DNA of 64,000 nucleotides, from contig NZ_AOIO01000030.1 of the NCBI RefSeq assembly GCF_000337555.1, positions 1 to 64,000 of the forward strand, given 5' to 3'. The stretch is from Natrialba asiatica DSM 12278 (lineage in GTDB: Archaea; Halobacteriota; Halobacteria; Halobacteriales; Natrialbaceae). Position numbers and translations under genes: made by a program. The notes under the pieces are model-generated. The model saw nothing but the letters and a program-made list of their open reading frames with translations, did no database searches and was not told the DNA's origin. Numbering within the stretch: position 1 is the first letter of the stretch; each line of letters starts with the position of its first letter. Positions 1-3,372 of this stretch are shown piece by piece.

Positions 1-21
1 AGAGATGTGTATAAGAGACAG
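1..21. other. Tn5/Nextera mosaic-end adapter remnant
   Basis: Bases 3-21 read agatgtgtataagagacag, which is exactly the 19-base transposase mosaic end used in tagmentation libraries. It is not genomic. Read in frame it gives MYKRQ, a well known artefact prefix of proteins predicted at contig edges. It marks the window start as an untrimmed contig end. Confidence 0.97.
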
Positions 22-231
22 ACCTTCGACTGCTACTCGACCCGCGTCACCGGCTCCTATTACTTCCCCCACACCGCCGACAACGAACTCGCCTACCTCT
101 GTGGCTCCGAGTCCAATTTTATCGTCTCGAAACCTGCACTCGTAACGTTGCTCAAAGAAACGGAGGCGGCGGTGATTTACGACGGCGATATTTACTGGTC
201 GAACTCGCTCTGGTCGCAGTTCGACGAGTAG
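22..231 (+). CDS. C-terminal fragment of an unrecognised protein
   Basis: An open frame of 69 codons runs from the adapter junction to a TAG stop. Its real start lies beyond the contig edge; the apparent ATG at position 7 is inside the adapter and must be ignored. The fragment contains runs such as GSYYFPHTADNELAYLCGSE and ends WSNSLWSQFDE. I recognise no domain. Codon use is somewhat less GC-rich than downstream genes, which could reflect an accessory gene, but too little is left to judge. The following 380 bases are AT-rich non-coding DNA. Confidence 0.5.
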   Translation, partial: TFDCYSTRVTGSYYFPHTADNELAYLCGSESNFIVSKPALVTLLKETEAAVIYDGDIYWSNSLWSQFDE

Positions 232-613
232 TCCAACTTCACGGGCCGCCGTACGTACTCACGCGCTCTGCAGACACCGTCTGCTGCTTCGAACGCTGAT
301 GAGAGAGCAATCCACCACTTCGCAAGCGGGGCCATACATTCATCCGGATTCGAGTACTTCTGAAACCCATGCAATGCGGTATTATCAGAACACCTTTATA
401 TAATTATTCTAATTAATTCGCGCAATCAGATACGGATTAAACTGGGGCCGTCATCGCTCGTTTCTAGTGAGTATCGTGTTGTTCTGCGAAACCTATAGCT
501 ATAATGAACAACAAGCGGACAAAAATTACCCGTTCGTCAATCAGGTGAGAAGTTCTGCCGTGAAGATGGCCACCAAAATTAAGTACTGGGATCTCGTTTA
601 CTTCTGCAGAGAG
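232..613. other. AT-rich intergenic region upstream of tbsP
   Basis: This gap holds no supportable gene. It contains a strong TATA-like run at 395-402 and a stretch rich in taatta (401-420). From a GTG at 467 the tbsP frame is open through to the gene, giving a possible 49-residue extension of poor composition that I do not believe is translated as part of TbsP. A second TATA-like run, attaagta, at 579-586 fits a leaderless start at 614. Confidence 0.6.
395..402 (+). promoter_or_regulatory. TATA box, probable promoter
   Basis: The run tttatata followed by attattct is a textbook haloarchaeal TATA element. Initiation would fall near 423-428, about 190 bases before the preferred tbsP start, so it may give a long-leader tbsP transcript. 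Confidence 0.5.
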
Positions 614-1432
614 ATGGCTTCGAATTTACTCAACCACCAGATTGACGATATACTCGAATCAGTCCTCGAAGACGCAAGCGGTGATGTCTACATGGTCAAC
701 CCCTCGCGAGACGCCATCGAGGAGTTCATCGCCGTTGCGACGGCGCTCGAGGGCTCGCTCCCGTCGGTCCACATGCTCGCCGACGAGCGTACCCTGAAGG
801 CGGTCATGGACGACTTCATCGTCGCCTCGAACGCGGCAGACCTGATCAGCGAGGGCGCACTCGCACTCCACACGCTCGAGGAAGCGCCGGAGAACTCGCT
901 TTTGGTTACCGAAGACCGCGTCATCGCCGTCGTCCACGCCGGCGACCGCGTCGGCGGCCTCGTCACCGACGACGGCAGTTTCGTCGAGGACACGTACGAG
1001 ACCTACGCCGATCGGTGGGAGGACGCGCCCGCTTACAACCTCCGGACACCGCCGATCACGGACGTTCGCGAGACCCTTTCCGACGAGATCAGCCCCGAGG
1101 CCGAGGACGATTTCACCGCGATCTTGAACTCGCTCGAGACCGCTCGTGGCGACGGCGACGGGCTCGACGAAGTGACGATCTCGCTGCTCGTCGCGGCCAA
1201 GAACGAGGCGTTGCTGTACGACATCAGCAAGTGGGGCGAGGACGTGGGCATCGCGTCGAAGGCGACCTTTAGCCGCACGAAGACCAAGCTCGAAGACATG
1301 GGCCTGATCGACACCGAGAAGGTGCCAATCGACGTTGGTCGGCCGCGCCTGCGTCTGAAGATCGGCGACGACCGACTCCGCGAGGCCGACAACGGCCAGC
1401 TCGCGACGGTCGCCCAGTCTATCCTGAACTGA
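614..1432 (+). CDS. tbsP: Transcriptional regulator TbsP
   Basis: The 272-residue product matches the haloarchaeal TbsP family, which in Haloferax works with TrmB on the glucose-dependent gapII promoter. The N-terminal two thirds (about residues 1-160) form an alpha/beta domain with the conserved NHQIDDILESVLEDASGDVY stretch. The C-terminal part (about 190-272) is a winged-helix DNA-binding domain with the helix series around WGEDVGIASKATFSRTKTKL. I chose ATG 614 because family members begin shortly before NLLNHQIDD; the longer frame back to GTG 467 has weak composition. It is followed after 131 bases by the rnp3 cluster on the same strand. The role in this organism is inferred from the family. 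Confidence 0.82.
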   Translation: MASNLLNHQIDDILESVLEDASGDVYMVNPSRDAIEEFIAVATALEGSLPSVHMLADERTLKAVMDDFIVASNAADLISEGALALHTLEEAPENSLLVTEDRVIAVVHAGDRVGGLVTDDGSFVEDTYETYADRWEDAPAYNLRTPPITDVRETLSDEISPEAEDDFTAILNSLETARGDGDGLDEVTISLLVAAKNEALLYDISKWGEDVGIASKATFSRTKTKLEDMGLIDTEKVPIDVGRPRLRLKIGDDRLREADNGQLATVAQSILN

Positions 1433-1563
1433 GGACCGACCCGGCACTGACTGTCGCTATCACTGTTTCTCGCTGCACTCGGATCGTCCTGTGTCCACTC
1501 GGCGGACAGCCGTTGTCGCCGGATGACGCAAACCCCAAGTTCTCGCCGCGTGAGTCCTCGACT

Positions 1564-2268
1564 ATGTACGAGGCCGTCCACGCCCACCCCGACGGACAGA
1601 GCACGGTCGCCAGACTTGCGAAGACGGCGGCCGAGTTCAGCTTCGAGGGCGTGGTCGTGCGCAATCGCGCGGACGAACGGGCCGAGTTCGACGCCGAGCG
1701 GATCGGGGACGAGTACGGGATCGACGTGGTCGAAGGGATCGAAATCGACGCCGACGATGTCGAACAGGCAAGCGGTGCGGTCGGCAACTACCGGACCGAC
1801 GAGACGATCATCACGGTGGCGGGCGGAACGCCCGCGATGAATCGCTTCGCCGTGGAAAACGAGAAGGTGGACGTGCTCGCCCGGCCGATGACAGCGGGCG
1901 GCGACGTAAACCACGTGCTCGCGAAAGCAGCCGTCGAGAACGGCGTTCGTTTCGAGTTCGATCTCTCGGGCGTCCTTCGCACCCACGGCGGGCGACGCGT
2001 GCGGATCATCCAGTCATTGCGAAAGCTCGCGGACATCGTCGACCACTACGACGCTCCCTACGTCGTGAGCGCGTCCCCGCAGTCACACCTCGAGCTCCGC
2101 GCGCCGCGGGACCTGGCGGCGCTCGGCGAGCAGCTCGGCCTTTCGAGTTCGTTCGTCGAGGCGGGACTCGAAGAGTGGGGGCGGATGGCCGAGCGCAACC
2201 GACGGATCCAGTCCGAGTCGTTCATTGAGCCAGGGGTCGAACGAGGCAGGTATGAAGAGGAGCATTGA
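1564..2268 (+). CDS. rnp3: RNase P protein component 3 (Rpp30)
   Basis: The 234-residue protein begins MYEAVHAHPDGQST and has the PHP-like TIM-barrel pattern of archaeal RNase P subunit p30, including GVVVRNRA, VEGIEIDADD and the RIIQSLRKLADIVDHYDAPYV region. It is a protein subunit of the tRNA 5'-maturation ribozyme, binding with Pop5 to activate the RNA. ATG 1564 is preferred over the upstream GTG-type extension because the family starts with this methionine. Its last 17 bases overlap the next gene, pointing to translational coupling. The Pop5 partner is two genes downstream, so two RNase P subunits are made from one cluster. Confidence 0.92.
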   Translation: MYEAVHAHPDGQSTVARLAKTAAEFSFEGVVVRNRADERAEFDAERIGDEYGIDVVEGIEIDADDVEQASGAVGNYRTDETIITVAGGTPAMNRFAVENEKVDVLARPMTAGGDVNHVLAKAAVENGVRFEFDLSGVLRTHGGRRVRIIQSLRKLADIVDHYDAPYVVSASPQSHLELRAPRDLAALGEQLGLSSSFVEAGLEEWGRMAERNRRIQSESFIEPGVERGRYEEEH

Positions 2269-2878
2269 GGATCACGCCGCCCGGTTCGACGAGATCGCAA
2301 GCGAGTACGACGACGAGGGTTCCGACGAGTACCGCGCGTGCGCGAATCTGGTTATCGAGCACGCTGCACCCGATACGGACGATGTCGTTCTCGATCTCGG
2401 GACCGGTACGGGCGCGATCGCGCTCGCGCTGGCTCCGGACGCCGAGCGCGTCGTCGGGCGAGACATCAGCGAGGGCATGATGTCGGAAGCCGAGACGAAA
2501 GCCGCCGAGGAAGGGCTCGAGAACGTCGCGTTCGGCCGCGGGACGTTCCGCGAGCCCGAGTACGACGGCGAAGTCGATATCGTGACCTCGAACTTCGCGA
2601 TGCATCACCTATCGGACGAGGAAAAGCGCGAGGCGATTTCGGCGATCGCCGATCTCGGTCCGCGCACGTTCGTCCTCGGGGACGTGATGTTCTTCGGCGA
2701 GCCGAACCCGGACGAGCCGTTCTACTCGCCGGAGGTCGACGATCCGGCGACCGTCGGCTTCCTCGCCGATGCGCTTACGGACGCCGGCTTCTCCCTGTCG
2801 GCCGTCGAACGCGTCCACGAGCAGGTTGGCGTGTTGGTGGCCGAGCGCGGCCGTCCCGACGCGGACCAGAACGAATGA
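2252..2878 (+). CDS. Class I SAM-dependent methyltransferase
   Basis: This 208-residue protein has the Rossmann methyltransferase fold: motif I VVLDLGTGTGAIALAL (about residues 46-61), an acidic end of strand 2 (GRDISEGMM) and the motif IV region VDIVTSNFAMHHL. It lies between the two RNase P subunit genes and overlaps both, by 17 bases with rnp3 and by the ATGA stop/start with rnp2. That arrangement suggests an RNA or translation-related substrate, but the target is unknown. The start at 2252 is the methionine just before KRSIEDHAARFDEIA, the usual N-terminus of this type; an upstream in-frame ATG would lengthen the overlap. Confidence 0.8.
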   Translation: MKRSIEDHAARFDEIASEYDDEGSDEYRACANLVIEHAAPDTDDVVLDLGTGTGAIALALAPDAERVVGRDISEGMMSEAETKAAEEGLENVAFGRGTFREPEYDGEVDIVTSNFAMHHLSDEEKREAISAIADLGPRTFVLGDVMFFGEPNPDEPFYSPEVDDPATVGFLADALTDAGFSLSAVERVHEQVGVLVAERGRPDADQNE

Positions 2879-3372
2879 AACATCTCCCAAAACACCTCCG
2901 GCCGCGCTGGCGCTATCTCGCGGTCGAGATCGAGAGTTGGCCGGACGCGTCGATCGATCGGCGAGCGTTCCAGCGCGAATGCTGGTACGCGGGCCAGAAT
3001 TTGCTCGGTGATCCGGGGAGCGCACGCGCCGAGCTGTCGGTCCTGCAGTTCGAGTTCAGTGCCGACGCAGGCGTCGGTGAGGCACTCGTCAAGGTCAGAC
3101 ACGGCTGGACAGACGAAGCGCGGGCGGCGCTCGCTTGCATCGACGAAATCGACGGGCAGCCGGTCGGTGTTCGGGTCAGCGGTATCAGTGGCACGATCCG
3201 TGCCGCTGAAGAAAAGTATTTAGGGCGACGCGGGCAAGATTCTGAAGAGAGAAACGTCGTGTTCGGGAACGAGGAGCGAGTCGCCGTCGTGCGCGATGAA
3301 TCTGTAGACGTGCGACTCGATGCGGCGTTCGCGGGGACGACAGACCTCGACTACGATTACGATTTAGCGTGA
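2875..3372 (+). CDS. rnp2: RNase P protein component 2 (Pop5)
   Basis: The product is 165 residues and begins MKHLPKHLRPRWRYLAVEIE, as archaeal Pop5/Rnp2 proteins do. The RNP-like fold is seen in the middle, with the conserved VKVRHGWTDEARAALACI and VRVSGISGTIRAAEEKYL segments; the latter is the family signature. Residues after about 125 form an acidic tail common in haloarchaea (ending DYDYDLA). It partners with Rpp30 on RNase P RNA. ATG 2875 overlaps the methyltransferase stop as ATGA. The proteasome alpha gene follows after four bases, so the cluster is continuous. Confidence 0.92.
   Translation: MKHLPKHLRPRWRYLAVEIESWPDASIDRRAFQRECWYAGQNLLGDPGSARAELSVLQFEFSADAGVGEALVKVRHGWTDEARAALACIDEIDGQPVGVRVSGISGTIRAAEEKYLGRRGQDSEERNVVFGNEERVAVVRDESVDVRLDAAFAGTTDLDYDYDLA

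Follow-up and report, generated by a model that had tools for sequence, protein, structure and literature searches.

The left end of contig 30 of the Natrialba asiatica DSM 12278 genome (4.4 Mb in 49 contigs) carries a stretch of library adapter, then the 3' end of an uncharacterised gene, then an uninterrupted gene for a TbsP-like transcriptional regulator (Table 1). The stretch studied is bases 1-64000 of this contig, called the window here. Its leftmost bases had been said in the original prediction to contain an exact Tn5/Nextera mosaic end, and they do: the 19 bases AGATGTGTATAAGAGACAG match with 0 mismatches. This is the single match in the window at up to three mismatches, and none of 100 shuffles contained any, so that 0 are expected by chance. 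The first open reading frame (7-231) uses a GTG inside the mosaic end, and its frame has no stop back to base 1; its first residues MYKRQ are adapter-encoded, and the start is artificial, as had been proposed. In the TbsP-like gene the Pfam match begins only at residue 52, so translation probably starts farther downstream than base 467.

Table 1. Features at the left end of the window.
Feature	Position	Strand	Basis
Tail of Nextera adaptor 1 or 2, final two bases (AG)	1..2	+	Suffix comparison with the adaptors in the available text of PMC3046479
Residual library adapter, 19-base Tn5 mosaic end	3..21	+	Exact match
Adapter-encoded artificial start codon and five residues, MYKRQ	7..21	+	ORF list
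Genuine 3' end of uncharacterised gene, 69 codons and stop	22..231	+	Comparison with relatives
TbsP-like transcriptional regulator, next gene, uninterrupted	467..1432	+	Pfam TbsP_N (E 1.8e-60) and HTH_TbsP_C (E 2e-56)

Base-by-base comparison with relatives places the resumption of genomic sequence at base 22. Low quality had been suspected in the bases next to the adapter, but the first 60 genomic bases show 0 mismatches to either of two homologous loci (L010 and L011), and over the whole of 22-231 ungapped comparison gives 203/210 identical positions to L010 and 200/210 to L011; as far as such comparison can tell, the bases directly after the adapter look sound. A search for plasmid near-identity with window bases 1-400 gave no match.

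The 69 residues encoded by 22-231 recur at 18 haloarchaeal loci, of which those of Natrialba aegyptia (94%) and N. taiwanensis (91%) are the most similar; the loci include one on a complete chromosome, that of Natrinema gelatinilyticum (L015). Several of these records, including the two closest, are probably from the same sequencing project and hence are not independent. In all 18 homologues a single frame runs continuously through the position of the base-22 junction, extending 630 to 802 codons upstream before a stop, and the gene in relatives spans about 700 to 800 codons when counted from the farthest ATG. In L010, one of these loci, the gene lies at 997-3210.

As query against the genome we used the frame from N. 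aegyptia, which measures 753 residues from stop to stop. Its residues 1-648 match contig 29 at 167454-169397 with 95% identity, and residues 684-753 match the window at 19-228 with 93% identity, the first matched codon being adapter. Contig 29 ends at base 169,398, and since the upstream part of the gene reaches that end, we conclude that the gap separating contigs 29 and 30 divides the gene, in agreement with the earlier view that a real gene had been cut. The missing stretch amounts to 107 bases by L010 or 113 bases by L011, and in these relatives it encodes a variable linker with abundant Ala, Ser and Thr. Contig 29 has no adapter at its end (L054), so an adapter is not required at every break. 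Paralogous places with 35-37% identity are also present in the genome, at 22,773-24,635 of contig 19 and 121,109-122,905 of contig 30.

The exact 19-mer is found in 26 copies when all 49 contigs are searched; the reversed pattern gives 0. The distance to a contig edge is 0 to 13 bases for fifteen of these copies, and the other 11 lie 1 to 17 bases from an internal N; at none of the 26 is genomic sequence joined directly beyond the adapter, only a contig edge or N. For 24 of the 26 copies, the tail that separates the 19-mer from the edge or N is identical to a suffix of adaptor 1 or 2; of the other two, that at the start of contig 33 has no tail at all and that in contig 10 has the adaptor 2 tail minus one base. 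Longer-pattern searches, in which eight tail bases had to be present, assign adaptor 1 to six copies and adaptor 2 to seven; where the tail is just 1 to 4 bases long, adaptors 1 and 2 are indistinguishable or separable only in part. The present Illumina Nextera adapters have different tails, TCGTCGGCAGCGTC or GTCTCGTGGGCTCGG. These agree with the observed tails in at most one base across the 26 copies (the comparison is informative in the 24 copies with at least two tail bases, the window's copy among them), and the present Illumina version was therefore rejected. Checking the first bases against adaptor sequences, as had been recommended, thus identified the mosaic end exactly and assigned the AG tail to the original Epicentre Nextera rather than to the Illumina version.

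Original Epicentre Nextera adaptors 1 and 2 are printed together with the mosaic end by Adey et al. 2010 (PMC3046479, in the portion of the article available), and the AG at window bases 1-2 fits both. The likeness to that system consists in the exact 19-base mosaic end with the preceding AG at the window edge and, at the other copies in the genome, in up to 17 bases of one tail or the other; the difference is that the window edge retains just two bases of tail, too few to distinguish adaptor 1 from adaptor 2.

Ten joints account for the 11 internal copies, since two copies in contig 3 share one N. These two, at 117657-117720 (L002, L003), are of opposite orientation and face each other over it; one tail is that of adaptor 1, the other that of adaptor 2. 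At three of the 10 joints, in contigs 5, 10 and 13 (L005, L007, L008), the genomic stretch adjoining the adapter recurs beyond the N, over 37, at least 60, and 56 bases, respectively. Such a repeat on both sides of a joint is what one expects if an adapter tail hides an overlap, and these three joints are probably false short duplications inside deposited contigs. No repeated stretch was detected at the other seven joints, within a check that covered about 200 bases for six of the 11 copies.

Other haloarchaeal genomes hold the same sequence. We found the 19-mer in 13 of 100 genomes searched, with our own genome counted; four of the six other members of the genus are among the 13. One genome (G005) has 35 copies, with the 19-mer at the very end of its contig 8. 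A close check of 20 stretches from four other haloarchaeal genomes, taking the first five listed places not at a contig start in each, yielded 21 copies, 10 at a contig edge and 11 at an N; the tail was exact adaptor in 17 and absent in 4. Contig 15 of G079 (L062) repeats the arrangement of contig 3 here, with two adapter copies facing one another over one N. Of 292 genomes sampled from the class, 30, our own counted, contain the CAG-extended 19-mer and the other 262 do not; the carriers are spread over nine of 77 genera. This all-or-nothing distribution over scattered genera fits a sequencing batch.

Two biological explanations of the contig start deserve consideration. The 19-mer is a substrate of Tn5 transposase and is carried by Tn5 constructs, so the contig might begin at the end of a real Tn5 or IS50-derived insertion in the gene, whether natural or from a mutagenesis construct. 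Against such an insertion, none of the 26 copies lies more than 17 bases from a contig edge or N, with only library adaptor in between, the natural IS50 outer end, in the form searched, has 0 matches in the genome, and the numbers across genomes (26 copies here, 6 to 40 in each of the 30 carriers among 292 class members, 0 in the remaining 262) point to a library batch. On these three grounds, copy positions, missing outer end and distribution among the 292 genomes, we rejected a real transposon insertion, which we consider very improbable.

Should the 19-mer instead be native haloarchaeal sequence, for instance a repeat or part of the cut gene itself, the open reading frame that passes through it would be accounted for, but coding is continuous at the junction in 18 of 18 homologues, and base-by-base comparison with four of them finds agreement at no more than 2 to 5 of the 21 positions of window bases 1-21. 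Two of the six other members of the genus moreover have 0 copies. The continuity of the homologues and their poor agreement with bases 1-21 led us to reject a native repeat, an explanation that we find even harder to credit than a transposon. We conclude that bases 1-21 are leftover sequencing adapter, an assembly artefact rather than biology. Almost certainly, this adapter went untrimmed from an original Epicentre Nextera (transposase-made) library, and the assembly was interrupted within a gene, at a variable linker.

A probable source is the haloarchaeal project of PMC4230888, which used PCR-free Nextera libraries and A5 assembly. The available text of that 2014 paper describes 59 haloarchaeal drafts, N. 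aegyptia included, with libraries that include PCR-free Epicentre Nextera and with assembly by A5. The PCR-free protocol, like the adaptor sequences, is printed in the portion of PMC3046479 available. In the methods of PMC4230888, as far as accessible, screening is against E. coli BL21 and pWH1891 only; trimming information is supplied with the reads, and the words adapter and adaptor are absent from the accessible main text. According to the available part of the A5 paper (PMC3441570), stage 1 uses TagDust to strip contaminating adapters, those of Epicentre Nextera among them, and stage 3 uses SSPACE to scaffold and extend contigs. We infer membership in the PMC4230888 set from kinship with N. 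aegyptia and N. taiwanensis, the draft state and the adaptors. The A5 haloarchaeal drafts (PMC4230888, PMC3441570) resemble the present case in being fragmented drafts of haloarchaea with Nextera adaptors and N joints; they differ in that the place of this genome among them is our own deduction and in that neither paper, in the parts available, reports left-over adapters in finished assemblies. A literature search, with most subscription journals outside its scope, turned up no report of adapter contamination in such genomes, and the joined adaptor sequence used as a literature query gave no match.

A plausible course of events can be suggested. Sequencing of short fragments would have continued past their ends into the opposite adaptor, giving rise to the tails; read-through of this kind predicts reads whose 3' ends finish in CTGTCTCTTATACACATCT. 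If TagDust drops affected reads in their entirety instead of trimming them, it would have removed those reads that were mostly adapter and left partial 3' tails in others. The stage 1 action of TagDust and the trimming information given with the reads speak against survival of the adapter, which therefore depends on this presumed whole-read behavior. Adapter-bearing read ends left untrimmed may then have been used by the assembler to end or extend contigs, with either SSPACE or the contig builder carrying the tails to contig ends; extension by the scaffolder is a candidate for the step that fixed them there. Adapter tails may further have hidden true overlaps, producing the single-N joints. 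At the locus studied, the break would have fallen inside the gene's variable linker, leaving the adapter on the left edge of the next contig.

The feature at the contig start is of low biological interest and is useful as a warning. The MYKRQ start of the first open reading frame of contig 30 should not be annotated, and the cut gene should count neither as a short gene nor as two genes. The 19-mer can serve as a simple marker of false contig ends and joints across a batch of reference genomes, because its CAG-tailed form is held by 30 of 292 class genomes and 3 of 10 joints here are flanked by duplicates. A broader proposition is about as likely as not: that roughly one in ten of the class genomes sampled holds adaptors as a batch effect, with internal copies marking false joints or false short duplications, and that the reference genomes are thereby biased in their gene counts, in their broken genes and in what look like tandem repeats. 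We did not find this bias described in print.

The cut gene itself, as judged from the 18 loci compared, belongs to a conserved haloarchaeal family. Those family members that were scanned matched no family in Pfam, NCBIfam or PADLOC, and a profile search for a solved relative of the cut gene found none. An AlphaFold2 model of the cut gene was built from alignment A2, which held 14 of the 18 homologues (L019, L023, L025 and L027 were omitted to thin the set); with a low mean pLDDT of 48.3 and a pTM of 0.31, it was too poor for a fold search. Two stretches are conserved in the family, HYIGHCE and FFLNACGS, and these may resemble CHAT-type (caspase-like) peptidases.
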